IMG/VR virus record: IMGVR_UViG_3300032893_000147
Coordinates: 1 to 39,851 of that record
Length of the DNA stretch: 39,851 nucleotides
DNA from: a virus
Strand: one strand, 5' to 3'
Shown here: one piece after another, positions 2,194 through 39,851 of the stretch
Layout: each line of letters starts with the position of its first letter
Position numbering within the stretch: position 1 is the first letter of the stretch
The notes under the pieces: model-generated
Database searches by the model: none
Seen by the model: the letters and a program-made list of their open reading frames with translations, nothing else
Told to the model about the DNA's origin: nothing
Position numbers and translations under genes: made by a program

Positions 2194-2487
2194 TCACGCC
2201 GGAGCGTCGGGTGCAACAGTTTTCATGTCTTCCTGTTCCCACCTTCCGCACCCCTGGCCCGGCTTCGTGCTCGGCCAGACGGACAGGAAAACAGGCTGCG
2301 CCTGCTGAACAGCGGGGCGAGCTCCTGCATTCTGAATGATGCGCTTCTCCATCTCGCTCACCGGGGGCGGTGCGCTCATCACCACCATTACGGTCGGCGG
2401 CCCCCACCGGCATTGCCCCATCGACTCCGGGGTATCCTTCTCCGGCATCATCCAGAACCGACACGACGCACACAACTTTTCAGACAC
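2194..2487 (-). CDS. small Cys-rich (zinc-binding type) phage protein
   Basis: A 97-aa protein. The N-terminus has CASC at residues 6-9, followed by RFWMM, then GQCRWGPP and, near the C-terminus, GCGRWEQ. This C-x2-C...GQCR...P...C-G-x-W layout is shared by many small phage proteins thought to bind zinc. The start is GTG with AAGGAGG eight bases upstream, and its first G is the last base of the preceding gene's TAG stop, so translation is probably coupled. It is the last gene of the leftward early operon. The biochemical role is unknown. Confidence 0.75.
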   Translation of the reverse strand: MSEKLCASCRFWMMPEKDTPESMGQCRWGPPTVMVVMSAPPPVSEMEKRIIQNAGARPAVQQAQPVFLSVWPSTKPGQGCGRWEQEDMKTVAPDAPA

Positions 2488-2660
2488 TAGATACACCTCC
2501 TTATGTCCCTCAGAAACCGCAGCGCCCACAGGCGGTCCGCTATCCACGCGCACAGGACGCGAACGACCTGTACCAGCTTCGCCACGATGATCAGGGCGAC
2601 GATAACTCCGATCCCGATACCCAAGGTGATCCCCAAACGCTCCAGAGCGTACAGCAACAC
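2487..2660 (-). CDS. small single-span membrane protein
   Basis: A 57-aa protein. It begins one base after the RusA-like gene's TGA, with GTG preceded by GGAGG at six bases, and its TAG shares a base with the next GTG start. Residues about 10-32 are a clear membrane span (GITLGIGIGVIVALIIVAKL), followed by a short, basic, Trp-rich tail. No family recognised. Small membrane proteins in early operons may act in exclusion or host modification, but the sequence only shows a membrane anchor. Confidence 0.7.
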   Translation of the reverse strand: MLLYALERLGITLGIGIGVIVALIIVAKLVQVVRVLCAWIADRLWALRFLRDIRRCI

Positions 2661-6729: not shown

Positions 6730-7170
6730 CTACACGGCGGATTTCATCGTTCGATCGAACATGACTATTGAACCCGCCACGGCCACGTTGAATGAATTGG
6801 TACGGATGCTCGGTAGTGAAAGATGCAAAGGACACTGAGCGAGATATTGAGCCGGGATTCCGTGATCTTCCGCCCCGAGCAAGTAGACGGCCCTCTCTGG
6901 ATGTACGAACGTCGAAATGTCTCTCCCGCCCATCTCAACCGCGACGATGGGACAACTGTATGGGATGTGCTCCTTGAAGTCGTCCCAATCCTTGAAGGTG
7001 AGAAGGGGAACGTGACGCCAGGTCTGGAGCGTGTCGCTTGCCTGTTTCGAGTAGCGGCACCCGATGGTGAAGATGAACTCGGCTCCGAGCTGGTAGGCTG
7101 ATCGCCAAAGCGTCCCGAGATTACTCGGCGTCTTGTTGTGGAAAATCCCGATTCCGAAGTATCCCCTCAC
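6730..7170 (-). CDS. SpoU/TrmH-family RNA 2'-O-ribose methyltransferase
   Basis: A 146-aa protein, the size of a minimal SPOUT enzyme, which methylates ribose 2'-OH of tRNA or rRNA using SAM in a trefoil-knot fold. All three family motifs are present: motif 1 with N17 and R23 (NLGTLWRSA), motif 2 with E101 and G104 (LLGAEDHGIP), motif 3 with S126 and N128 (SFNVAVAGS). The GTG at 7170 (AGGGG eight bases upstream) gives the family-typical opening MRGYFGIGIF. A GTG at 7212 with AGGA upstream is an alternative start. It sits between an HNH-like gene and small genes of the early operon. The RNA target cannot be read from the sequence. Confidence 0.85.
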   Translation of the reverse strand: MRGYFGIGIFHNKTPSNLGTLWRSAYQLGAEFIFTIGCRYSKQASDTLQTWRHVPLLTFKDWDDFKEHIPYSCPIVAVEMGGRDISTFVHPERAVYLLGAEDHGIPAQYLAQCPLHLSLPSIRTNSFNVAVAGSIVMFDRTMKSAV

Positions 7171-7215
7171 TTCATTGCCCCTTGCTGATATCCCTGCTTC
7201 ACGGCTTCTCACCGA

Positions 7216-7973: not shown

Positions 7974-8632
7974 GCAGCGGCCTTTCTCAGAAGACCCGAC
8001 ACCTCGTACAGCTCGCGGCACGCTTTAAACCGACGCTCCTGCAGGTCGACGTTCTCCATCTCCTTCCACTCGAAACCCTCTGACGGATCACGGCCAAGAC
8101 GAAGTATCCCCGCCTTCTTCACGTCGTACCCGTTCTCGTGAGCGAGCATCCAGTACCCGGCGACCTGTGCGTACTGGTCTTCGTAGATGGCCTTGGAAGT
8201 CTTGATGTCGGCCAGCGTCAGCACACCGTCAAGGATAATGATTAGGTCCAGCTTCCCTCCGTAGCGCATGGTCTCACTCACCAGGTCCTTTTCCACGGCG
8301 ACGACCTCAATATCGTGCTGAGACCGCCACTCATGGTACTTCACCAAGGATGTCTCGGCGCGGTCCCTATCTATCGCGTCGAACTCCGCGACGTAGGGGA
8401 GGTATCTTTCCATTCCCTGTATGTCGCACTCGGCGAGGTAGTGGGCCAGAGTCCCGGCCTTGGCCAGCTCGTCAACATATGTGGCGGTGTTGATGTGACG
8501 AAGACCCATGATGTTGTTCCAGCGCTCAAGAGCCTCTTTCCTCATCACGCCGGTGATCGTGGTACAGGACGGGACTCGCGTCCCGTCTTTCAACTTGTAG
8601 ACCGACCTTTCGTTCTTCGGTGTGAAAATCAC
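7970..8632 (-). CDS. RecB/Cas4-like PD-(D/E)XK exonuclease
   Basis: A 220-aa protein with the nuclease signature in full: G-x-x-x-H with H64 (AGTLAHYL), E114, D129 (YGGKLDLI), D142-I-K144 (LADIKTSK) and the QxxxY-type Q156-x-x-x-Y160. Such enzymes resect double-strand ends to give single strands. The gene directly overlaps erf (GTGA), the usual exonuclease plus annealing-protein pairing of phage recombination. The GTG start has GGAGG six bases upstream. No iron-sulphur Cys cluster typical of true Cas4 is visible, so a plain phage exonuclease is favoured. Confidence 0.85.
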   Translation of the reverse strand: MIFTPKNERSVYKLKDGTRVPSCTTITGVMRKEALERWNNIMGLRHINTATYVDELAKAGTLAHYLAECDIQGMERYLPYVAEFDAIDRDRAETSLVKYHEWRSQHDIEVVAVEKDLVSETMRYGGKLDLIIILDGVLTLADIKTSKAIYEDQYAQVAGYWMLAHENGYDVKKAGILRLGRDPSEGFEWKEMENVDLQERRFKACRELYEVSGLLRKAAA

Positions 8633-9516
8633 GCGGCACCTCCGGCGGGAACACTGGTCATCCGCTTCACCGTGTCCAGCAGAGCCTTCAACGCATCGCA
8701 ATTCCCCTGGTCGAGATTGCTGTCTGCGGAGTCGCGGAACCGCTGCGCCACCTTTGGCGGGATCTTGTCCAGCAGTGGGAGAATGGCGTCGTACAGCTTC
8801 CGGCAGTCGGCGGGCGTTGACTCGGCTAGCCCCTCCTTGCTACCGTGGCCGACCTCGAACACCGTCTCCACCGGCTCGTCGCTGTACTCCTTGCGCCTGC
8901 TGTGCTTCTTCGCCGCTCCCGTTGCCTGAGCATCGTCGTCATCCTCGGCGGTCATTATCCCGAATGCGTTGTTGAAGGCGTACCGCTTGGCGTAGGTCAA
9001 CGCGCTTGCCACCTTCTGGGCCGCGTTCATGTAGGCGTCGTGGTCAATCGGGACCGCGAAGCGAGTCTGTTCCTCGTGGCCGTCCACGTGGTGAGCGATG
9101 CAGATTGCCGCCACTTCCTTGTCAGTCTGCTCGGTCTTGATGGTGTAGCTCAGGCCATTGGCCTCCAGGGGAACCTTCACCGTCTCCACGATGTCCTCAA
9201 GGGCTGCGAAGCTGTAGCGGTACTTCCCGTGCTTGTCGTACACGTCGTGCGTCTTGGAAACAGCGGGGCACACGCTCTGGAACCTCGACAGAGCCTTGAA
9301 AAACTGCTCCTTCGCCCACGCCGCTTTCTGCTTCTCCACCATCGCCAGAAGCCGCTCCATGGTCTCCACGGGCAGGCTTTTGTCGATTGCGCGGGCAACC
9401 AAGGTCTGAAAGTCGATCTTGGCGTCCGCGGTCTGCGGAACCTGAACAGGCAGGCCGGTCGTCTCCTTCTTCACCAGTGCGGTCCCCTTCCGCACAGCAG
9501 CCTTCTTGGTACTCAC
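8629..9516 (-). CDS. erf: ERF-family single-strand annealing recombinase
   Basis: A 295-aa protein. The core (residues about 65-200) has the family pattern: KYRYSFAALEDIVETVKVPL, then GLSYTI, HHVDGHEEQT, and AAQKVASALTYAKRYAFNNAFGI followed by the acidic EDDDDA. ERF proteins bind single-stranded DNA and anneal complementary strands, and can circularise or repair phage genomes. The N-terminus is Lys-rich and the C-terminus, after a basic linker, is a separate helical domain. The GTG start has GGAGG six bases upstream and overlaps the small zinc gene stop. It is translationally coupled to the exonuclease gene downstream. Confidence 0.9.
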   Translation of the reverse strand: MSTKKAAVRKGTALVKKETTGLPVQVPQTADAKIDFQTLVARAIDKSLPVETMERLLAMVEKQKAAWAKEQFFKALSRFQSVCPAVSKTHDVYDKHGKYRYSFAALEDIVETVKVPLEANGLSYTIKTEQTDKEVAAICIAHHVDGHEEQTRFAVPIDHDAYMNAAQKVASALTYAKRYAFNNAFGIMTAEDDDDAQATGAAKKHSRRKEYSDEPVETVFEVGHGSKEGLAESTPADCRKLYDAILPLLDKIPPKVAQRFRDSADSNLDQGNCDALKALLDTVKRMTSVPAGGAA

Positions 9517-15740: not shown

Positions 15741-17405
15741 CTACATTTCATAATCTATCGCCGATGTTATCTGAACATTCGAATTGGAAACGCTTGCGCA
15801 CCATTTGAATTGAAGGTTAGAATCAAGATGTATCTTCAATAGAGCCCAAGCAGAATTGCCCGCAGTCTGTGATGTGACAAAAATGTACTTATACAAATTG
15901 TTTCCAACGGTGATATTAGAAAGTGTGTACCCCGTAGCCGCTTCAACAGCCAAAGAGGGGAGAGTCCCGGCCTTATTCACATTCGCCATGCACCAAGCCG
16001 CTTTCGCCCCCACCGGAACTCCTGTCATGGTCACCGCGGCACTCCAAGTTCCACCCGTGTTTCCGCCGGCGATGTTTACAACAAGAGTCGTTGTACGGTT
16101 AGCGTCGCTTGTGACATGATCAGTGCCCAGACTGGGCTCTGCGGATACGGGCTGGACAAGGGAGTAGGCGGAGTTCCACCCGGCGGTGGCGATGGAACTT
16201 GCACCCCCAACCATCGTGATATTCACATCACTGCTGGCCATTGCGTAAATAGAGTTTGCCCCGAATGGGTTGACTATCAGGCTTCCCCACGTCTGACCGT
16301 TGTCATAGGAACGAGCTGTCTCAGCGGTGAATGTGGATACTTGGAATATCCCGAAATTGTACGAGATATTCGAAACTTGACTCCCCCCCGGTAGTGGATT
16401 GGAAATAAGTGCGCTCCACGTCAGACCCAGATCTATAGAATATGCTATTTTGCCACCGGCTCCTCCGGCGACAAGCGCACCATTTCCAAAAGAAAGACCA
16501 CTTATTGATGTTCCCCCGAAAGGATTCGATATTGCGGATCCCCAAGTCAGACCGAGGTCAGCGGATCGAGCTATCACCCCGGAATCACTCGTGGCCACAA
16601 AAACACCATTTGCAAAGGTCACGGTTCTGATCACAGAAACTCCAAAGGGATTTGTAATCAAGGAACCCCACGTCTTCCCGAGATCGGTAGAACGAGCAAT
16701 TTTGCCACCTGCCCCGACAGCGACAAATATCCCATTTCCATAAGCAACGGCGCGAATGTCTGTCCCGCCGAATGGGTTTGCCACTAGAGCATGAATGGTC
16801 ACACCGAGGTCTGTTGAATAAGACGTTTGTCCTAGTTCTGCTACTATGACAAAAACACCGCTACCAAAGGCCACGCCCCTGATACCGCTTACGCCGTTGA
16901 ATCCGTTCGCGATCAAGGCACTCCACGTAGCACCGTTGTCAGTAGATCGTGACAAACTTGCCGCCGCACCCCCAGCAAGAAAAACACCACTGCCATAGCC
17001 TATGCAGAAAATGTTATTCCCGGCGAAGTTGTTTGCTATCAGTGCCGTCCACAACTGGCCGAGCTGCTGATAGAGCGTACCTTTGACGTACATGTCTCCA
17101 GAAAAAGCCACGGAGTTGCCGGCAGCGTTTGCTATCTGTCCAGAAGCCGCCTGTGCGTTTATGTCCGCCTGCTGTTTGCCCTGGTTGAAAGAACCGAGCA
17201 CGCGGACATTTCCTCCGAAGATGTAGTTTCCGTTGAGAATCTTAGAAGCCGGGAGGTTAGGATTTGCCACGGCAACCTCCATCCGAGCAATCATACCCCC
17301 CGCACCCACGGCCACCAACACACCCGTACTCCGCGGGGCATCCGGCGCACCCGGTATCTGGCACCCGGAAAACACCACGATCAGAGAAAGTAGGATTGCC
17401 TTCAC
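15741..17405 (-). CDS. seven-bladed Asp-box propeller protein with lipoprotein signal (putative adhesin)
   Basis: A 554-aa protein. Residues 1-15 form a hydrophobic signal ending in a lipobox-like FSGC with Cys15. Residues about 110-400 hold seven ~42-residue repeats, each with a GxGxFVA-type strand, and most with an S-x-D-x-G-x-T-W Asp box, as in sialidase-type beta-propellers. A half-repeat (VLVAVGAGGMIAR) directly follows the signal. The C-terminal ~150 residues are beta-rich and look like a fibre tip. GTG at 17405 has AAGGAGG six bases upstream, so the signal is not a start-site artefact. The gene looks less GC-rich than its neighbours. It could be a receptor-binding protein or a surface lipoprotein. 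Confidence 0.72.
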   Translation of the reverse strand: MKAILLSLIVVFSGCQIPGAPDAPRSTGVLVAVGAGGMIARMEVAVANPNLPASKILNGNYIFGGNVRVLGSFNQGKQQADINAQAASGQIANAAGNSVAFSGDMYVKGTLYQQLGQLWTALIANNFAGNNIFCIGYGSGVFLAGGAAASLSRSTDNGATWSALIANGFNGVSGIRGVAFGSGVFVIVAELGQTSYSTDLGVTIHALVANPFGGTDIRAVAYGNGIFVAVGAGGKIARSTDLGKTWGSLITNPFGVSVIRTVTFANGVFVATSDSGVIARSADLGLTWGSAISNPFGGTSISGLSFGNGALVAGGAGGKIAYSIDLGLTWSALISNPLPGGSQVSNISYNFGIFQVSTFTAETARSYDNGQTWGSLIVNPFGANSIYAMASSDVNITMVGGASSIATAGWNSAYSLVQPVSAEPSLGTDHVTSDANRTTTLVVNIAGGNTGGTWSAAVTMTGVPVGAKAAWCMANVNKAGTLPSLAVEAATGYTLSNITVGNNLYKYIFVTSQTAGNSAWALLKIHLDSNLQFKWCASVSNSNVQITSAIDYEM

Positions 17406-17417
17406 GATTCGCCTCCT

Positions 17418-20400
17418 TCACTGGTTCACCTTTCGTATTGCTCCCACCACATCACCTACGCCATGCTTGTATGGGATCTTCGTTACCATTGGGACCGCAA
17501 AGGCCATGAAGGACTCAAACGCATCCCCCCATCCTTTGTCACGCGCCTTCTGTGACTTCCCCGTGATCCCAGCCTTCACGCCCTGAATCATCTTCACGAT
17601 GTCCGTCTCAAACTGACCGATGAGGCTGGTGTTCGTTGACGCGGGCTGCCCCTTGGAAGTGATGGCCTGCTCCACGGGGTAGACTGCGCTGGACACCCCG
17701 AAACCGAGGCCCACGGTGTTGCTGGCAAGTTCTGTGATTGCGTCCGCCAGGATTCCCTTCTGCTTCTTCTCCTTCTTTCCCGTTACAGCACTCTGGATAG
17801 CCGCGCCACCTTCACGGATCCCGGTCCTTATCGCCGCGATTGTCAGAGCTTCCCCGAGAACTCCTACCACGAGGTACTTGGCAAACCTTTTCCCACCACC
17901 CGGCGTCTTCATGTCCACCGCCCGGCGTATACCAAGCTGCAGCAGTGCGTTCTTCTCCGACATGAGTGTCCCCGAGAGCATCCCGAGAACTCCCTGCCTC
18001 TTGATGTTCGCCGCGTACATCTCACGGGGGTTGGCGTGTGTTCGCTTCACAACGTACTCGGCGTATTTGATTGCCGCCTCGTCCTTCTGCTGCTCTGTGA
18101 GGTTCGGTCCGTCACGGTCGGACAAATCCGCAGCGCGCTGCAGGTCCAGAGACGGAGCTCCTTCCTTCATCTCGCGGCGTGCCTGGATGATGGCACTCCA
18201 CATCTCTCCCTTTGCCGCTCCCGCAAATCCAACCTTGATCGGAAGCATGGAAGCCTTCTGTACCTTCGTGAACGCCCCGCCGAGTCCCTTCGTTGAACCC
18301 TTTGCCGCAAGAACGTCCTGAATCTCCTGCATCGAACCGCCCTCCCATATCTGGCGGTACAGCGTGGAGTTTTCCAGAAGGTACTCGTGAGTGGATTTCG
18401 GGTGCATGGCGACATACGCCTGACCCTTCGTCCAATCACCGGCAGGGACGTATCCCGCCAGAGACCGTTCCACAAGAACTCGGTTGATTGCCGCTGTGCT
18501 CACATTGAACCCGAGGACCGCTCCGATTCCACGGTTTCGGATGTTCAACGTGAACCGCTCGATGGCGTTCAGGGGTTTCTTGGTCCCTGCCACCGCCTTC
18601 AATCCATCGGTCATCTGCTTGTAGAACTCTTCGCCAAACTTCCCCTTCACGGCCGCGGCAAAGTCAGGATTGAAAAGAAGTCGGGATGCGTTTCGAACCG
18701 GCTCCCCCAACCCCGTGAACATAGCTGAGGAGTCCACAACGTCCATGATGTCGTTACCGGCGTTTCTCACCCAAACGGGTTTCGTTGAACCCACCCGCTC
18801 TATCGTGTGGCTTTTGTCAACACCGGCGTGAGCGAAGGAGGATTGATCACGCTGCCGTAGAATCTCCTCCTCAAAGGGCAAACCGAGCTCCGACATCACG
18901 CGATAGATGGGGTAGTACGGGTCCAGCAATTTCAGATCGTAGCCGTACATCTTCCTGAACGTGGCCCCCATGTCCACGCCAGTTCTCTTTCCAAGGTCAA
19001 GGACTTGCTGGAGGAATCCGCGGTCCGTCTCGTCCATTGTGGCAAGGATGGCATTCAGGGATGACTCGGGGAGGTGGTAGATTTTCCCCTGCTCTTTATC
19101 CCCCTGCAGAGCAAACCCGTTCTTCAACGATTCCCACCCACTCTCCGTGGATTTCAGTCCGGCCATTGCGATGACGTGACCGCGCTCCATTTCCCCGCTG
19201 AACCCTGGAACGTCGATCTTTCTGCGTTCGTTCAGGAAGTCGGCCATGTTCAGCTTCTTGTCTTCAAGCCACTTGAAAATGGGGTCTGAGTACTCGTACT
19301 TCTTCGCGTTGTACACGTCATCCCCGGCGTCAACCATCTTCGCTCCTACTCGGTACAGAAGCGAATCCTCCCCGCCACCGAGGTAGGACAGCATAGACTC
19401 ATATCCCATGTTCGAAGCCTTGTACCACCGCGCCAGGTTCTTCACGAACCTCTTCGTGTCTTCAACGGCCCCGCCTTTCGTGAGTTGCGAAAACTGCGCT
19501 TTCGCCTCCTCGGGAGTCAACTGCGGGTGTGCCTTCTGGAAACGTTCAAGGTCTTTGGTGATCTTCGCCGGCCCGATCTCCTCAATGGCCCGTTGCACGG
19601 CGTCCTGTGATTGGATCGCCAAGTCACGGTCGTGGATGATCCGTGAATCTCGGCCCGCCGTGTAATAGGCCATGATCGCGTCATGGACGGTCTTCAAGTC
19701 TTCCGCAGGTAGATCGCGCAGAGGATATTTGGAAAGTTCGTTAAATCGGGCGAGGTCACGGGCCGGGAACACCGTGGGAGCCGTACCGTCCTCTATCGCC
19801 TGACGGATTCCCTGGAGACGGTCCAGAGTCTTTGCCGTTGGCTTCACCGCCGTGAAGTTCTCCCTTATGGCCTCCAGAGGTTCCTTGAACTCGTTGGGGA
19901 TCTTGGAAGTGTCAAGGTCTCGGATGTTGCGAATCATCCGGTTTGTCTCTGTCCGTTGACGTATCTGGTCACGCAGGGACTTCACCGCGGCAACCTTCTC
20001 CGCTCTGGCCGATTCCAGTTGCTCCGCAAACTCCTCCCGTCCCGCCTTCACCTTGGCCTGCAGGTCTTCAATCTGCGTGTTCAACTTCTCAATCTCGGGT
20101 CGCTTCTCGATGTAGTCCGCCGTTCCCTCGGCGCTGCGCGTGGCCTCGTCCAGAGCCTTGCCCTGCTCCTCGGTCATTCGCGGGGTTTCCACCTTGGGCT
20201 TCTCTGCGGTGGGAACCTCGGGGGGGCGTTCAACGATGTCGCCTACTGTAGCCGTGGCCAGCTTCTCCTTGGTCGAGATCTCGATAGGATGGGGCTCCGG
20301 TGCTTGCTGGGGGGCCTCCGGTGAGACTTTCTGGGATTCCTCGACCTTGGACACGTCTTTCTGGATTTCCCTTCCTACAGGGCCTTCCATGTCCAATCCG

Positions 20401-21404
20401 CCAAGGGCAACCATTGGGGTACCAATCGCCGTCTGTACACCTGCCGAGATTCCCATCTGTTTCAGGATGTTCACGGCGCTTTCGTGAGGGACGTTCTGCT
20501 CATCCGTGAGGGTCTTTGCAAACTCGTTCGCCAAGAGGTTGGCCCCGGTGATCGCCCCCCCCATGGCACCCTGTTCAATCGAACCGAGAACGATGGCACC
20601 AGCCCTCCCGCTGAGCCCTATCTTCATGGCCGCTTTCAGCATGGTCTTCTCCAGGAATGACTCTCCCTGTCGAACACCAGGGATCTCCCCGATCTTCACA
20701 AAGTTCAGGGCGGTCATCATCGCGCCCATGCCAACAGATACCCCCCGAGCCACCCACGGGTTGACACCCTTCCCGTCTTTGTCCCTCCAGTCCATCATCG
20801 CGTCGTACTGAGCGGAGATCGTGGAGTCGAATTGCTGACGGAGGGGAAGGTATTCCCCCGCGGCCAATCCAGCCACGGCACCCAATGGACCGAGGGCGAC
20901 ACCTCCGATCTGTGCGCCCACCCCAGATCCGATTGCACCCGCAAGGCCAGTACCCACCTGCATCCCCATGTCCATCAGAGACGAGATGACTTGCTTGGGT
21001 AGTTCCTTAACTGTCTGTTCTGCCGGGTGAAGACTCTTTTTCAACTCCTCGATCTGCTTGTCGTTCGCGGTGCTTCCGAAGAATCGGGGCGTTGTCAGAG
21101 CGGCGATTTTCAAACGAGTAACTGCATCGTCAACCGTGTTCTTCAAACGATCCCTGAGCGCCGTGGGCTTCATCGGAGATCCGTACAACTGCTGAGAAAC
21201 GATGTCGGGGTGCTGCGCAGTGACCGCCGGGTGAATCACTGGGGAGAGAAGGTACGCTGCGGAGAGTGCTGCCTGTCCCTCCACAGGGCCCGAGGGGTGG
21301 TTCTGGATGAATGTCTTTCGCGCATCGTCAGGATTGGTCGGGGGGGGGGCGGGATTGAAATCCGGAGGGGGCGCAGAGTTGAAGTCTACTTGACCGTCTG
21401 CCAT
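17418..21404 (-). CDS. very large internal virion (ejection) protein, gp16-like position
   Basis: A 1328-aa protein, close in size to T7 gp16. Order: Pro-rich N-terminus, a helical part, a Gly/Ala-rich membrane-prone region (residues about 140-320, with repeated GxxxG), a Pro/Glu linker, a coiled coil (about 400-520), a long helical body, and a C-terminal hydrophobic segment (KYLVVGVLGEALTIAAI). Proteins of this kind sit inside the head and are ejected to form a channel across the cell envelope. No transglycosylase motif was recognised. It follows two other internal-protein genes and overlaps the first by 19 bases. Assignment rests on size, order and architecture. Confidence 0.75.
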   Translation of the reverse strand: MADGQVDFNSAPPPDFNPAPPPTNPDDARKTFIQNHPSGPVEGQAALSAAYLLSPVIHPAVTAQHPDIVSQQLYGSPMKPTALRDRLKNTVDDAVTRLKIAALTTPRFFGSTANDKQIEELKKSLHPAEQTVKELPKQVISSLMDMGMQVGTGLAGAIGSGVGAQIGGVALGPLGAVAGLAAGEYLPLRQQFDSTISAQYDAMMDWRDKDGKGVNPWVARGVSVGMGAMMTALNFVKIGEIPGVRQGESFLEKTMLKAAMKIGLSGRAGAIVLGSIEQGAMGGAITGANLLANEFAKTLTDEQNVPHESAVNILKQMGISAGVQTAIGTPMVALGGLDMEGPVGREIQKDVSKVEESQKVSPEAPQQAPEPHPIEISTKEKLATATVGDIVERPPEVPTAEKPKVETPRMTEEQGKALDEATRSAEGTADYIEKRPEIEKLNTQIEDLQAKVKAGREEFAEQLESARAEKVAAVKSLRDQIRQRTETNRMIRNIRDLDTSKIPNEFKEPLEAIRENFTAVKPTAKTLDRLQGIRQAIEDGTAPTVFPARDLARFNELSKYPLRDLPAEDLKTVHDAIMAYYTAGRDSRIIHDRDLAIQSQDAVQRAIEEIGPAKITKDLERFQKAHPQLTPEEAKAQFSQLTKGGAVEDTKRFVKNLARWYKASNMGYESMLSYLGGGEDSLLYRVGAKMVDAGDDVYNAKKYEYSDPIFKWLEDKKLNMADFLNERRKIDVPGFSGEMERGHVIAMAGLKSTESGWESLKNGFALQGDKEQGKIYHLPESSLNAILATMDETDRGFLQQVLDLGKRTGVDMGATFRKMYGYDLKLLDPYYPIYRVMSELGLPFEEEILRQRDQSSFAHAGVDKSHTIERVGSTKPVWVRNAGNDIMDVVDSSAMFTGLGEPVRNASRLLFNPDFAAAVKGKFGEEFYKQMTDGLKAVAGTKKPLNAIERFTLNIRNRGIGAVLGFNVSTAAINRVLVERSLAGYVPAGDWTKGQAYVAMHPKSTHEYLLENSTLYRQIWEGGSMQEIQDVLAAKGSTKGLGGAFTKVQKASMLPIKVGFAGAAKGEMWSAIIQARREMKEGAPSLDLQRAADLSDRDGPNLTEQQKDEAAIKYAEYVVKRTHANPREMYAANIKRQGVLGMLSGTLMSEKNALLQLGIRRAVDMKTPGGGKRFAKYLVVGVLGEALTIAAIRTGIREGGAAIQSAVTGKKEKKQKGILADAITELASNTVGLGFGVSSAVYPVEQAITSKGQPASTNTSLIGQFETDIVKMIQGVKAGITGKSQKARDKGWGDAFESFMAFAVPMVTKIPYKHGVGDVVGAIRKVNQ

Positions 21405-28021: not shown

Positions 28022-29044
28022 TCAGGTGATGACCGGTTCGGTCGGCTGGAGACGATCCACGACGCGGAACGGTATGTCCATGAAGAACGCCGTTTTCTTC
28101 CCCCACGGTGCATCGTCGAAGTGGAAGGAGTTCGCGTTGTTCTTCGCCTGCTGCATCGCCTGTACCCACACCTGCCGGGTGCAGTACGCCACCACTCCGG
28201 TCATGTCGGTGTCGGGAAGGCCCGCTATCATGGAGACCATGATGTCCGACGACCACGGGTGCGTCAGGTCGATGTTTGCCATACGCTGCACGCACCGCCA
28301 GTCGGCCACGCACAGCCCGAACCCGATTGAGAAGAACGTCACCTCAGCGCGGAAAGGCCGGTTATTGGCATCGTAGACCAACTGAATCTCCGGCATGTCC
28401 TCCATGTTGATGAAGTCCTGCCCGTCCCGGGGGAAGGGGAAAAACACTCCGTCCTTGCCCCACTTGATGAGCCACAGCGAGGACTCACCGCCGCCGGTGT
28501 TTCCACCCGCAGAGAACACGTTCGCCGGCCAGTAGGGCAGCCCCTGAATCTGGTTGTACGTGATCCCCGCAATGGAGTTGAACCGGTTGTGAAGACCCGT
28601 GATCTCATCGGGAGACACCGCGGTCGTCTGCCCGATGGTCGTGTTTCCGTAGAACACCCTGTCGTGGAAGCTCTTTGAGAGTCCACGCAGGAAAAGCTCG
28701 GCCTGGATGCGCTTGAACTCCTCGGCGTTCTTCTGCTTGCGCAGAATGCGAACGTCGATCTTCAACGCGCTCTCCAGCTCCTGGATGACTTCCGTGACCG
28801 GTCGAAGCGTGTTCACTTCCCAGTTCACGCCCTGGTTGATGATCGCGTCGGTACCAATGGCTTCCGTCATGGTCTGCAGCAATCGGTAGGAGTTGTAATC
28901 GTTGGACTCCTCCCAATCCCCCTCTTCCATGAGAGGGGTACCCTGCGAGATCACATCGACGACGGCAAGCTGTTCGCCTGACGGTCCGATGTTCTTTACG
29001 GCTTCTGCCATTGTCACGACAGAGCCGAAACTGTTCGTTGTCAT
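28022..29044 (-). CDS. major capsid protein
   Basis: A 340-aa protein, the size of HK97-fold major capsid proteins of T7/BPP-1-like phages. It has an acidic-helical N-arm with SGEQLAVVDVISQGTPLME, a long central helix (ELESALKIDVRILRKQKNAEE), and a beta-rich domain with RVFYGNTTIGQ, ANIDLTHPWSSDIM and the final FFMDIPFRVVDRL. Its placement after a scaffold gene and before a cement gene is canonical. ATG at 29044 follows GAGGGGAT. Confidence 0.88.
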   Translation of the reverse strand: MTTNSFGSVVTMAEAVKNIGPSGEQLAVVDVISQGTPLMEEGDWEESNDYNSYRLLQTMTEAIGTDAIINQGVNWEVNTLRPVTEVIQELESALKIDVRILRKQKNAEEFKRIQAELFLRGLSKSFHDRVFYGNTTIGQTTAVSPDEITGLHNRFNSIAGITYNQIQGLPYWPANVFSAGGNTGGGESSLWLIKWGKDGVFFPFPRDGQDFINMEDMPEIQLVYDANNRPFRAEVTFFSIGFGLCVADWRCVQRMANIDLTHPWSSDIMVSMIAGLPDTDMTGVVAYCTRQVWVQAMQQAKNNANSFHFDDAPWGKKTAFFMDIPFRVVDRLQPTEPVIT

Positions 29045-32478: not shown

Positions 32479-32618
32479 TTTGCCGCCACCTGTACGATCA
32501 TCACACAGCCGTACTTCTCAAGGATTTCCGCAATTTCTCTCTCACATTTCTGAACCCTATCCTGCGGAGTAAGGGTTCTGTTGAGGTAGGCTGTCTTGGC
32601 TTTTAGTTCATAGTCCAC
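32475..32618 (-). CDS. 47-aa hypothetical protein after the portal
   Basis: GTG at 32618 lies ten bases inside the portal 3' end, with GGGAGG five bases upstream. The protein is helical and charged (TPQDRVQKCEREIAEILEKY). The stop overlaps the next ATG. Supported by ribosome site and overlap, not by homology. Confidence 0.66.
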   Translation of the reverse strand: MDYELKAKTAYLNRTLTPQDRVQKCEREIAEILEKYGCVMIVQVAAK

Positions 32619-34386
32619 TTGGACCTCCCATCTGCTGTGCCGTTGGGCTTCCCTGTTCGGGTGCCTGTGAACCCTCGCGAGCGGCCTTGGCCATGGCCAG
32701 CATGTGCTCCTCGTTCTGTTTCTGCTTGAGCATCTGCGCCTTCTGCTGGCGGATGAGGGCCAACTGTTTCTCGTCGAGCAAGAGCTTCTGCGGGGCGCTG
32801 TTGGACGTGACCATGAACTTCCGCCACTCGTCGGGGTTGAATCCCTCCATGATCGCCTGGAACAACTGCGGGGCTTCCTTGGTCACGTTCTCGATCTCCC
32901 CGAGTTGTGCAAGCATCGCGTTGAATCCCTGCTGGCCCAGGTATCGCTTCGCCGCGGTTGCCACCGGTCCCATCATCTCAAGATCAACGAGACTCCGTGA
33001 ATACTGCATGATAGACTGAGGTGGTCGGGGGAGCCTTCCCTGCTTGGCAAGTACGGCCATCGTCTTGTTCAGCTTGGGTATGAGAGTCTGCGAGCTTGAC
33101 CGCGTGATGATCGGGATCAGTCCAGAAGCCTTCTCACCCTGAACACCTGCAGCGGTGAAAGCCTTGGTGCTCGCCGGAAGGTCTGCCATCATCGTGAAAA
33201 GGTCCGCGCGGAACCGTGTCCCCAACTGTTTCCTCAGGTCGTTCACCTGCTCCACGCTCACCGCGAAGTTCGTAGGGAACTGGAACGCCTGTACCTTGTC
33301 CTGCGCGTTGTGAAGAACTGTCTGGCCGAGAGGGAAAAAGTTGACGTTTCCCTTGACACCTTCCGTAATGAGAAGCGGGGGCTCCACGGAAAGCTGCACG
33401 GCCTTCAAAAGTGACTTCGCGGCGTTGTTCTCCATGATGACCGAGTAGATGGAGTCCGTGGCCGGGCAGAAGCAATACAGCCCATTGCTCCCCTTCCTCC
33501 AGACCCACGTGTCCATCGGCATGTCAACGCCGTCGTCGTCGTACCCACTCTCCTTGAGTACGATCTTCTCCGTCTCCACAACCCACACGCTGGCCCACGC
33601 CTTATCCGTTGCCGCCACGCTTTTCACATCGCGCTCGGTCCTCTTGTAGATGGCGTGGATGCACATGAACTCCACGAACGGGTTCTCGTCGATCTTCTTC
33701 TTGAAAACCGTCGTCAGTTTCGCGTCGGGAAACTCTCCGAGGATCTGTCTTCCGGTAAGGGGAAACTTGTGGTGCCATCCAAGGGGCCGACCATGGACGT
33801 CAAACCACATGAAGATCTCTCGCGGATGAAAGGTCTGATAGTCGAGAACGGACTTCTCATAATTCCATTCCGGTCCCGCCATCGTTGCCACACCATGAGA
33901 GACCGCGTCCTGTACCGCCTCGTTGTATTCCTCAAAGAACGGGCTCCTGTTCATTTCGAACGTCGCGGCTTCCTTCGCCTCGTCCATCCACTTCATCGCG
34001 TCCTGGTTCTCGCGCAGTGGTCCGCGGAAACGGCTCATCCACCAGTCGATCAGGGGGCTTGCCGTCTGCGCCTGGAAGTTGTCGCTGAACTTCTGGATGG
34101 CATCCGCCGCGGCATCGTCGTAGATGTCCGTACCGCCCTCGTCATTGGGGGAGTCGCCTTTCTGATAGCCGATGTCGTAGTGACTGCGGCGCGAGGTGAC
34201 AAAGCGGTCCACGTCGTCCCACAAGTTGTCTTGGTAGTGCCGCGCCTTCTCCAGCCTTCTCTGCCTCTTGACTATCTCCTCCGCCAGTTTGAAGCCCGGT
34301 GTCATGTTCTCTGGCGAGCTCGTTCCCTTGGACACCGCGCCCGAACCCGAGGAGAGAAGTCTGGAAACCCCGATTGTCTGTTCCAT
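32608..34386 (-). CDS. portal (head-to-tail connector) protein
   Basis: A 592-aa protein, slightly longer than T7 gp8 (536 aa). It has the connector family opening: RQRRLEKARHYQDNLWDDV, FVTSRRSHYDIGYQKGD and, after IYDDAAADAIQKFSDNF, SPLIDWWMSRFRGPLRE. The C-terminus is Gln/Met-rich and probably disordered (QQKAQMLKQKQNEEHMLAMA). The dodecameric portal forms the DNA entry and exit channel. The gene lies four bases after the preceding TAG; the ribosome site is weak (TAGGCC), so coupling is likely. Confidence 0.9.
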   Translation of the reverse strand: MEQTIGVSRLLSSGSGAVSKGTSSPENMTPGFKLAEEIVKRQRRLEKARHYQDNLWDDVDRFVTSRRSHYDIGYQKGDSPNDEGGTDIYDDAAADAIQKFSDNFQAQTASPLIDWWMSRFRGPLRENQDAMKWMDEAKEAATFEMNRSPFFEEYNEAVQDAVSHGVATMAGPEWNYEKSVLDYQTFHPREIFMWFDVHGRPLGWHHKFPLTGRQILGEFPDAKLTTVFKKKIDENPFVEFMCIHAIYKRTERDVKSVAATDKAWASVWVVETEKIVLKESGYDDDGVDMPMDTWVWRKGSNGLYCFCPATDSIYSVIMENNAAKSLLKAVQLSVEPPLLITEGVKGNVNFFPLGQTVLHNAQDKVQAFQFPTNFAVSVEQVNDLRKQLGTRFRADLFTMMADLPASTKAFTAAGVQGEKASGLIPIITRSSSQTLIPKLNKTMAVLAKQGRLPRPPQSIMQYSRSLVDLEMMGPVATAAKRYLGQQGFNAMLAQLGEIENVTKEAPQLFQAIMEGFNPDEWRKFMVTSNSAPQKLLLDEKQLALIRQQKAQMLKQKQNEEHMLAMAKAAREGSQAPEQGSPTAQQMGGPSGL

Positions 34387-35597: not shown

Positions 35598-35656
35598 TTC
35601 CTTCCCCCCTTGCACTTGCCCATCAGCTTCACCTTGCCACCACTCTTCGGTTTCAC
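35594..35656 (-). CDS. 20-aa Lys/Gly-rich microprotein after terL
   Basis: GTG overlaps the terL TGA (GTGA) and has AAGGAGG five bases upstream, one of the best ribosome sites in the block. The TGA overlaps the next GTG. The peptide is almost only Lys, Gly and a few hydrophobics (MKPKSGGKVKLMGK...), with one Cys and a pI well above 10. The exact start/stop chain argues that it is translated. A nucleic-acid or virion-interior role is possible. Confidence 0.62.
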   Translation of the reverse strand: MKPKSGGKVKLMGKCKGGRK

Positions 35657-37410
35657 CTTCTCCTCCTTGCGTCCCATCCCTGCGCCACCGCCCCGTGCGT
35701 CGGGGTGTACGCCGGCTCCACCGGCACCCCCGCGCTGTCCAACACGATCCGCCTGTTCCTCGGCCCCGATGAGTAGGCGGTCATCCTCTCGGGGTACTCC
35801 GCTATCAACTGCTCCTCCTCGGCGATCTCTGGCCTCGGCTGCCTCACCTTGGGGTACACCTCGGCAACGACGCTATACTGAAAAGCATCGTGCACGTGAC
35901 TGAAGTTGTTTTTCAGCGGGTTTTCCTTGTAGTCCTTCTCGCCCATGCGCGGGTTCTGCTCCCGGACGTATCCCGCGGTGAAACCGTTGCACAGCATGTA
36001 GCACTGCTGGTCGATCAAAAGCCCGTTGCGCCATAGGAGCAACTGGTCCACCGCAGAAATCCTCAAGTCAAGCTCATTCCTGCTGGGGGTCATCTCGATG
36101 CCGCAATACTCCATGACCATCTGCGCGTTGCTCGTAAACCCGCCGTTCTCACTGGAGTATCGCGCCCAGCTCGCGGGATCCGCGTAGTGTATCCCCTCGT
36201 AGCCCGGGTACTCCGATGCCAGGGACGACAGGACCCACTTGCCGAAATCCAGCGCCTGCATCCTGTCGTTGTAGAACTCCTTCAACACCTGGTACTGCAT
36301 GGGCGCTATCTTCTGTGTCACCACTGCCGCGGGGAAGTTGCCAGAGAAGTCCCACCCCACAAGCAGCGGAACGCCCTTCAATTCCCCCGTCCTGTTGTCC
36401 CTCTCCTTCCTCCACGTCAACGGGGCCTTGGCAATGTGAACGTGCTTGTCGAAGTTTCGATACACTGGTTTCCCCCTCGGCGTGTCTCCCGGCTCCCCTT
36501 CAACGAGAATGTTGACCATCTCCGGGGCCTCCGAGTAGTCGCGGCGCACGCTGTCGTAGTACTCGGGTCTCAGGTTCTCCTCATTCTCCCCCGCTTCCTG
36601 CCAGAACCCGACATGGTCCGGCGTTGGCGGGATGGACGGTATCGGCCCATTCGTCGGCAGCTTCTTCTCCAGGACCGAGCAATCGTACACACCCGTGCGC
36701 CAGTCTTTCTTCCCCGTGAGCTCGCCCGGTGCCCCGCACTTCGGGCAGTGGTCCACGAGCGAGAAAGTTTTCTGACACTCCCTGTTCGTGCACCTCCACT
36801 GCGGGGCGGGGTCCACAAGCACCTTCGGCCCCACCCAATCGTATGTCGTGTACATCGCGTGATTCGCGGGGAAGGGGTTTGCCGTCTCGATGAAATACCG
36901 CGGCACAAACCCGCACGGGCTGTCCTTCTGCTTGGGGTACCTGCCCAGCCTTCCCTTGACGACCTGCTTGGACAGAAGCGGCAACTGGTTTGCCTCGTCG
37001 ATCCACGCACCCGTGACGTTCTGGCTCCTGAACTTCCCTTCCTCCTCTGGCGTGTTGCACGAAAGGAACTTCAAGTGCACGATGAGCGGAGACGGACAAT
37101 TCGTGCTGCTCGGCCACTTCACCGTCAACAGCTTCCTCGACGGCTTCCATTCACCGTGAGAGAACCAGTCCATGGCCTCGGTGAAGTCGGAATCCATCAG
37201 AGCGTCGTATGTTTTCCGGATCACGAACCACCGAGTCTCACTGATCCCGTAGTTCATGTATATCCGACGAGGAAGGTTGAACCCCACCTCCCAGATGGCC
37301 GCCGTTGTCTTCCCGCTTCCGATCGGACCGACGATGCACCGTGACTGCGCATCGCAGCGATGGAACACGTCCAGGGTCGGGGAACAGGGAGCATACTTCT
37401 TGTAAATCAT
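35653..37410 (-). CDS. terL: terminase large subunit (packaging ATPase and nuclease)
   Basis: A 585-aa protein. The ATPase domain has Walker A GPIGSGKT (28-35) and Walker B AWIDEAN (135-141). An inserted four-Cys zinc ribbon (C207, C212, C222, C225) lies between the domains. The nuclease domain has D354 (VGWDFSG), D411 (HYADPAS) and a later HDAFQYS aspartate, as in RNase-H-like terminases. It cuts concatemers and pumps DNA into the head. ATG at 37410 overlaps the preceding stop (ATGA) and is better than an upstream extension. It has the usual order with terS upstream and portal downstream. Confidence 0.93.
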   Translation of the reverse strand: MIYKKYAPCSPTLDVFHRCDAQSRCIVGPIGSGKTTAAIWEVGFNLPRRIYMNYGISETRWFVIRKTYDALMDSDFTEAMDWFSHGEWKPSRKLLTVKWPSSTNCPSPLIVHLKFLSCNTPEEEGKFRSQNVTGAWIDEANQLPLLSKQVVKGRLGRYPKQKDSPCGFVPRYFIETANPFPANHAMYTTYDWVGPKVLVDPAPQWRCTNRECQKTFSLVDHCPKCGAPGELTGKKDWRTGVYDCSVLEKKLPTNGPIPSIPPTPDHVGFWQEAGENEENLRPEYYDSVRRDYSEAPEMVNILVEGEPGDTPRGKPVYRNFDKHVHIAKAPLTWRKERDNRTGELKGVPLLVGWDFSGNFPAAVVTQKIAPMQYQVLKEFYNDRMQALDFGKWVLSSLASEYPGYEGIHYADPASWARYSSENGGFTSNAQMVMEYCGIEMTPSRNELDLRISAVDQLLLWRNGLLIDQQCYMLCNGFTAGYVREQNPRMGEKDYKENPLKNNFSHVHDAFQYSVVAEVYPKVRQPRPEIAEEEQLIAEYPERMTAYSSGPRNRRIVLDSAGVPVEPAYTPTHGAVAQGWDARRRR

Positions 37411-37979
37411 TGCCTGACCAGCGCCGTAGCCTTCCACACGCGCGAGTACGTCACCGCCCTTGCATCGACCGGTATCATCTCGCTTACTTCTTCTTTCGTC
37501 TTCCCTTCGTAGACCCTCTCGACCCAGACTGATGAAGGGCTATCGCGACTGCCTGCTTGCGCGAACGAACCTTGTGACCCGAACCTGACCGAAGCGTCCC
37601 GCGCTTGAACTCCCCCATGACCGCGTGTACCTTGTTCTTGGGGCTGAGCTTCTTCCTCTTCTTCGCCCCTTCCCCTGGCCTGTCTGCGTGCTTGTAGGAC
37701 TTCTTCACCGTGGCCGGCGTCCGTTTCTTCTTCGATGACATTGTCTCCTCCCCTCAGCTTCAGGTCTGCCTCGACCTTACCGCCCTTCGCATAGACTCGC
37801 ATGGCGGGCAACGGCATCGCTCCCTGTGTGGCCTCCAGCGCTGCCTTGCTCAACTGCGCGGGGTCCATCGGGGGGTTGTACACGCTCTTTTCGACCGCAG
37901 AGCGCAAAGCGGCCGCTCGAGACTCGATCTCCGCCAGGTTTCGCTTACCACCCGCCCCGTCGTCAATTATTCGTGACAC
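37407..37979 (-). CDS. 190-aa frame containing a nested gene
   Basis: The N-terminal ~80 residues look like a real protein (MSRIIDDGAGGKRNLAEIES, then VYNPPMDPAQLSKAALEA). The frame then runs without a stop through the whole 37484-37741 gene in another frame (Glu/Arg/Gly-rich text there). It ends with a plausible segment (VERVYEGKTKEEVSEMIPVD) whose stop overlaps the terL ATG. GTG at 37979 has GGGAG seven bases upstream. Either the protein is 190 aa with true dual coding, or a frameshift separates two shorter genes. Confidence 0.55.
   Translation of the reverse strand: MSRIIDDGAGGKRNLAEIESRAAALRSAVEKSVYNPPMDPAQLSKAALEATQGAMPLPAMRVYAKGGKVEADLKLRGGDNVIEEETDAGHGEEVLQARRQARGRGEEEEEAQPQEQGTRGHGGVQARDASVRFGSQGSFAQAGSRDSPSSVWVERVYEGKTKEEVSEMIPVDARAVTYSRVWKATALVRQ
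37484..37741 (-). CDS. Lys-rich DUF6496-like small protein
   Basis: An 85-aa protein. The core KVHAVMGEFKRGTLRSGSG and KVRSRKQAVAIALHQSG match the pattern VMxEFKxGxLxSGS...V..RKQAIAIAL seen in a family of small basic phage proteins (DUF6496-like). ATG at 37741 has GGGGAGGAG immediately upstream. The termini are Lys/Arg-rich. It lies entirely inside a longer frame on the same strand. The family has no established function. Confidence 0.78.
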   Translation of the reverse strand: MSSKKKRTPATVKKSYKHADRPGEGAKKRKKLSPKNKVHAVMGEFKRGTLRSGSGHKVRSRKQAVAIALHQSGSRGSTKGRRKKK

Positions 37980-38661: not shown

Positions 38662-38811
38662 TCACACCTCCGCTGCCTCAAGCAGCACTGATATTGTCCT
38701 GGACAAGCTCAACGGGTGCACCCCGTCGTAGCTGAGATACCGAAACCGATACCGCGCCGCCATCACCTCCCGATAGAGCCCCGCTGGTATGGCAACACGG
38801 CAATGTATCAT
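38662..38811 (-). CDS. 49-aa hypothetical protein (complete copy)
   Basis: ATG at 38811 lies just after the palindrome TTGTATACAA. GAGG about 11 bases upstream is a weak ribosome site, and an inner ATG after GGGAGGTG is an alternative. The peptide is Arg/Tyr-rich in the middle (RYRFRYLSYDG). Its 5' end is duplicated at 1-27. Unknown function. Confidence 0.58.
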   Translation of the reverse strand: MIHCRVAIPAGLYREVMAARYRFRYLSYDGVHPLSLSRTISVLLEAAEV

Positions 38812-38824
38812 TTTGTATACAACC

Positions 38825-39016
38825 TCAATTGATTCCTGCGGTCATGCAGAACACCCGATGTAGCACCGAGTCAACCAGCACAACCCCGATGAGGTACTTT
38901 GCCCTACGATGAGCGCAGTCAATCACGTTCTGCAGGTGACGTGTCATTTCACGTCCACAGACCGAAAAGTCCCGCCACGGCCCGATTTCAGCGTCCTGGG
39001 GCAGTTCCTCAAGCAT
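38825..39016 (-). CDS. small hypothetical protein downstream of terS (right copy)
   Basis: The counterpart of 41-232: 63 aa, with Cys replacing Ser in FSVCGRE and Ile replacing Val in NVIDCAH. Same ATG inside the terS 3' end, same ribosome site. The near-silent divergence shows that the reading frame is under selection, which supports it as a real gene. Confidence 0.76.
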   Translation of the reverse strand: MLEELPQDAEIGPWRDFSVCGREMTRHLQNVIDCAHRRAKYLIGVVLVDSVLHRVFCMTAGIN

Positions 39017-39800
39017 CCTTGGCCTCCTCGCGCATCTTCTTCCACCGCTCCGCGGCACTCTCCGCCTCCCCACCCTGCCCGGGGGCTCCCTTGAGCGTGT
39101 TCGTGGGCACCCAGCCGCCGTAGGGCTCGAAAACGATGACTTCCCGCTCGCTGGTGGCCTGCTCCCCCCACTTGTCGGGATGTATGCGCCCGGCAATCTG
39201 TAGGGTGCGCTGAATCCTCTTGTCTCTGGCGTTCACGAGATCCCTGGCCACGGGGATACGGACCTCTACCGACTTCACAAGCGCTAGAACCTTCTGCACG
39301 GGGTCAAGACCCTCCACGTCGGGAACCTGCTTGACCATCTCCAGAAGATCCTCGTGCTCCTTGTCCAGAGATACCGCCAGCTCAAGGCCGCGCTGAGTCT
39401 CTGCGTCTACAGCAAAGGCGTAAGCACGTTCGCACGTCTCCTTGAACTCCGGTCTCTCCCTCGCTGCAGCAAAAAGAGTCTTTCGGCTTGGAATGTCAAC
39501 GTATCGCCTTCCGGGATGGTCTTTCCCGGTCTCTTTTCGTTTCTTTTCCCCTTCCTCGATGATCTTTGCGAAGGACCAGCCTTGAGACTGCAGCTCGATG
39601 ACTCTCTCCATCCAGGGTTCGAAGACGGTTTCCACCTCCCCCATGCGACGGGACACATCGGCGACCTCCCGGGCCTCTTTCTCGCGGTCGGGAAGGCCGG
39701 TCGTCACATTTTTGTTGCGCTTTGTCAGCTTGGAATCCTTGGAACCTTGTCCGTGAGCCTTCTTCTGCGGTCCCTGCGGGGTTTTGGGAGTCTCAGCCAT
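39009..39800 (-). CDS. terS: terminase small subunit, long allele (263 aa)
   Basis: The same protein as 225-920 at both ends, but the centre differs. After the shared QSQGWSF it reads AKIIEEGEKKRKETGKDHP and PSRKTLFAAARERPEF. It then carries a 32-residue longer helical section (EDLLEMVKQVPDVEGLDPVQ and following) before rejoining at RIQRTLQIAGRIHPDKWGE. The N-terminal DNA-binding-type region is followed by this helical oligomerisation-like part. The extra length is in frame and helical, so the protein is likely functional. The small terminase forms rings that bind the packaging site. Confidence 0.83.
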   Translation of the reverse strand: MAETPKTPQGPQKKAHGQGSKDSKLTKRNKNVTTGLPDREKEAREVADVSRRMGEVETVFEPWMERVIELQSQGWSFAKIIEEGEKKRKETGKDHPGRRYVDIPSRKTLFAAARERPEFKETCERAYAFAVDAETQRGLELAVSLDKEHEDLLEMVKQVPDVEGLDPVQKVLALVKSVEVRIPVARDLVNARDKRIQRTLQIAGRIHPDKWGEQATSEREVIVFEPYGGWVPTNTLKGAPGQGGEAESAAERWKKMREEAKDA

Positions 39801-39851
39801 ACTAAGCTACCCTCCGGCAAGAAGTTACCACACTTTCGGGGTCTGTGCCAC

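Follow-up and report, generated by a model that had tools for sequence, protein, structure and literature searches.

Background

Terminase genes that vary between coexisting phages have already been described, and the case presented here is a further example. In cryoconite phages the genes that vary most often include those for the large and small terminase (terL and terS); the role of this variability was stated to be unknown (PMC7468147). In such phages a stable core genome carries alternative homologous genes at fixed places, known as metaviromic islands, an arrangement that has been attributed to recombination (PMC7468147). Variation within a population can also interrupt de Bruijn assemblies: metaSPAdes and MEGAHIT are documented to leave end overlaps of maxK length where a contig breaks, and COBRA deals with contigs that lead into closely related sequences at both ends (PMC10914622). 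The terS gene of P22 contains the pac site (PMC9611059), and phage single-strand annealing proteins are described as promoting recombination of diverged sequences (PMC3945230, PMC5499656, PMC8093625).

The locus studied here lies at the ends of IMG/VR virus record IMGVR_UViG_3300032893_000147, the whole 39,851-bp stretch of which is called the window below. As in the metaviromic islands of cryoconite phages (PMC7468147), diverged variants of one gene are found inside near-identical flanks, at a fixed place in an otherwise common genome; unlike in those phages, a single contig carries both alleles, one at each end, where they could be seen with no mapping of reads, and the exchange is limited to the middle of terS. 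As in the breaks treated by COBRA (PMC10914622), there is a shared end of putative maxK length at a variable site, and both ends can meet related sequences. The present overlap differs from that case in being about 1 kb long, in containing a full divergent gene, and in that its far end shares 113 rather than 127 bp.

The two contig ends are homologous

A BLASTN comparison of head against tail showed that the window begins and ends with one and the same locus in the same orientation, in its first 971 bases (1-971) and its last 1,067 (38785-39851). Two same-strand segments were obtained, 1-440 against 38785-39224 (428/440 identical, 97.3%, E = 0) and 477-971 against 39357-39851 (419/495 identical, 84.6%, E = 1e-159). 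The gap between them marks an indel zone, at 39225-39356 in the tail (minus strand with respect to the gene) and 441-476 in the head, and the tail is longer by a net 96 bp (63 + 33), in frame. The two copies begin with an exactly shared 127 bp (1-127, equal to 38785-38911), directly followed by a mismatch, and finish with an exactly shared 113 bp (859-971, equal to 39739-39851) that comprises the start of terS and its upstream sequence. The only other self-match that BLASTN found in the window was weak, 80 bp long and located inside a gene with Asp-box repeats. Joining the ends gives a circle of 38,784 bp with allele A (positions 1-38784) or of 38,880 bp with allele B (972-39851), in agreement with the original prediction, made from the sequence alone, that the ends are the same locus and that the genome closes at about 38.78 or 38.88 kb. 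The record is classed as linear, i.e. no end repeat was detected, and inexact ends would account for a repeat having been missed.

Each end carries one intact terS reading frame on the minus strand. Allele A, the short form, encodes 231 aa (225-920), and allele B, the long form, 263 aa (39009-39800). Both belong to the Sf6-like small terminases (PF20901 / PHROG 1482) by a significant profile match over the core domain, allele A with 32.2 bits to PF20901 (cut-off 27) and E = 2.7e-7 to PHROG 1482, and allele B by PHROG 1482 (E = 2.1e-5), its PF20901 score of 24.4 bits lying under the curated cut-off of 27. The neighbourhood is that of a small terminase as well, with terL (35653-37437; PHROG 2, E = 1.9e-14, and PF03237) lying downstream of terS in the closed circle, and the gene for the portal, the head-tail connector (32608-34386; PF12236, E = 5e-61), all on the minus strand and in an order that is kept in relatives. 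Thus both proteins resemble the Sf6-type small terminase over the core and in having terL and portal genes nearby, and differ from its profile in having about 100 residues ahead of the matched region and, for allele B, 32 extra residues inside it. Both TerS proteins should form the small terminase ring, which starts packaging by binding phage DNA and recruiting TerL. No sequence match to TerS was found in the PDB or among named phage records, and the folding of the DNA upstream of terS was unremarkable (z = 0.62). An AlphaFold2 model of allele A, built with four sequences, was of too low a quality to be used for fold searching (mean pLDDT 43.7); the helices of this low-confidence model (residues 62-72, 77-91, 106-115, 117-145 and 153-174) are no more than suggestive of an HTH with a helical oligomerisation hairpin, and in it the length difference between A and B would sit between two long helices.

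Divergence is concentrated in the core of terS

The differences between the two alleles are far from evenly spread. In a two-breakpoint segment test, 84 of the 284 columns at 419-702 of the head (minus strand, the diverged core of allele A, which also has 96 bp fewer) differed from allele B (30%), as against 18 of 687 elsewhere (2.6%), and the likelihood gain was 70.5, compared with at most 8.4 in shuffled columns. At the protein level A and B are 100% identical in the N-terminal part and 95% in the C-terminal part, but 69% in the core, where B and the terS of a distinct relative (L004) are 68% identical, and A and L004 64%. A four-taxon site count in the core gave an uninformative 1:1:1. In view of the sharp clustering, and of a core as diverged between A and B as between B and L004, the differences read as a recombination mosaic, rather than as sequencing error or simple drift. 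The 96-bp indel in the original prediction is confirmed, whereas its third-position SNPs describe the divergence only in part: 62 of 106 differences in terS codons are at third positions, but 29 of the 79 changed codons are non-synonymous, and the changes are clustered as a mosaic. All substitution types were represented (CT 25, GT 23, CG 19, AG 13, AC 12 and AT 10).

Related contigs and other genes

A related terL was found in four other viral contigs, at 72-92% protein identity, and terS is single and upstream of terL in both relatives that span the site (G001 and G004). In G001, a 37.1-kb contig (L004/L008), terS encodes 260 aa and is long like B, and in G004 (L007) it encodes 229 aa and is short like A. 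The two blocks missing from allele A are also missing from the short form of L007, and those present in allele B are also present in the long form of L004. The grouping of A with the short and of B with the long form is based on this common indel pattern and on identities in the indel block. L005, which is the closest relative (terL 92%), stops at about window position 38,829, beside terS, and the L006 contig ends inside terS; contig breaks at terS thus recur, in too few contig ends for a firm statistic. An alignment-based TerS search gave no further relatives, and a terL scan of genomic contigs gave one weak partial match only, with no host or prophage.

Several other genes deserve mention. 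The major capsid protein (28022-29044, minus strand) is 92% identical to that of G001, in contrast with 72% for terL and 68% for the portal, which reflects either strong conservation or exchange of the capsid gene. A small protein (2194-2553, minus strand) is encoded upstream of terS in the window, and its weak homologue in G001 (28614-28871) lies between terS and terL, a placing that makes a rearrangement around terS possible. A 160-aa SpoU-family RNA methyltransferase (6730-7212, minus strand), well over the Pfam cut-off and with no PHROG match, is uncommon cargo for a 39-kb phage. The 554-aa protein with Asp-box (BNR) repeats (15741-17405, minus strand), probably a virion surface or tail protein, adjoins a 1328-aa protein (17418-21404, minus strand) that had no match in PHROG or Pfam.

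Coexisting strains as the probable source of the two alleles

The best explanation, which we consider very probable, is that the alleles stem from two coexisting strains, differing at terS, of a single phage with a circular map, both strains being, by implication, present in the sample. The assembler would have left a node just 3' of terS, passed through allele A and along the shared 38-kb backbone, re-entered the same node and continued into allele B, where it would have stopped, so that the map would have been opened at terS because the two co-occurring strains differ there. Two such strains and a single genome with a tandem duplication were compared as K-mer (de Bruijn) graph models, at a K of 127 that was inferred from the exact prefix, the record stating neither assembler nor K. 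With two circular strains the branch edge is predicted to begin exactly at base 1 of the window, as seen, and the 127 bp at 1-127 are likely the node of the assembly graph where the two alleles branch; the alleles rejoin at 859-971 / 39739-39851. At this far end the agreement is incomplete, since the allele B edge is predicted to extend 14 bases beyond the actual end, the exact suffix of 113 bp being 14 short of 127. A K-mer coverage gap in the rarer variant, or trimming of the end, has to be assumed for this shortfall, which lowers confidence in the exact graph history, but not in the allelic relation.

How much weight such end lengths can bear may be judged from 80 control contigs of IMG/VR related to the microvirus phiMH2K, which has a small circular genome. 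One would expect their exact end repeats to pile up at one K, but among the 80 contigs the lengths were spread from 20 to 144 bp with no dominant value, and a strict requirement for ends of maxK length is therefore not reliable in this collection. At least eight of the 80 (L025, L031, L044, L062, L078, L080, L092 and L093) had inexact end overlaps, of 245-677 bp and 92-99.6% identity, so it is common in the collection for a record that looks linear to close through inexact ends. As an aside, detection of exact end repeats would miss the circularity of these eight contigs. The proposal that two strains occur together and that the graph broke at the variable gene is thus supported by the bubble geometry at K = 127, by the single-copy terS of the spanning relatives and by the inexact overlaps of the controls. 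No independent contig combining this backbone with a single allele turned up in a search that may omit near-identical records, and an exact DNA pattern from allele A had no match in viral contigs.

One may also consider that a single genome carries two tandem terS genes, unit B (38785-39851) being followed by unit A (1-971), as a true duplication of which the copies diverged or one was acquired. Both reading frames are unbroken and apparently constrained, and the graph model of a duplication likewise places a branch at base 1. At K = 127, however, the contig should then run 126 bp beyond 39851 into the second shared node, which it does not; terS is single-copy in the relatives spanning the site; and identical ends around a 30% diverged middle would need extra events, whereas they are expected of a bubble. 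This second alternative in the original prediction accordingly fits less well than a mixture of strains, and we regard it as improbable. It is more improbable still that the assembler built a chimera, in which the tail allele was that of another phage species, attached to the backbone via a shared stretch. The allele cores are indeed as different as those of distinct relatives, but the flanks of allele B are identical to those of A (the first 127 and last 113 bp, and the N-terminal 77 columns of the protein alignment), and identity over the first 440 bp is 97%, where distinct relatives differ by 25-45% in protein. Finally, programmed variation in one phage, by a diversity-generating retroelement or an inversion switch, would also leave a gene segment in two versions between conserved flanks, but it was rejected as having a negligible chance, given substitutions of all types, an indel and many synonymous changes, the absence of long inverted repeats flanking the segment, and a scan of the larger ORFs that found neither a reverse transcriptase nor a site-specific recombinase.

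Recombination and packaging

The core of one allele was probably gained from a more distant relative, through homologous recombination in the conserved flanks. The phage encodes an Erf-like single-strand annealing protein (8629-9516, minus strand; PF04404, E = 1.8e-23, and PHROG 155, E = 1.9e-38) and also a RusA resolvase; since annealing proteins recombine diverged sequences, an exchange between co-infecting relatives, plausibly aided by the phage's own Erf protein, is the likely origin. The swapped core is the part covered by the Sf6 TerS profile match, and the swap would alter the DNA-binding and oligomerisation core of TerS, leaving the N-terminal stretch and the C-terminal end almost unchanged. 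One may go further and propose that the two forms of the TerS core, short and long, have persisted as an old polymorphism in several species of this phage group and are exchanged as a cassette; if pac is inside terS here, as it is in P22, recogniser and site would be swapped together, giving strains that package their own DNA by preference. We hold this to be unlikely.

Closure of the contig through two strains is most likely an ordinary assembly effect, and the circular map is consistent with headful (pac) packaging. The record, classed as linear, most likely represents a phage map that is circular and complete, and, should the two alleles belong to two strains, it would be wrong to count two terS genes in it. 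For the phage, the locus would show cleanly how recombination, probably between coexisting strains, can be limited to the core of a packaging gene.
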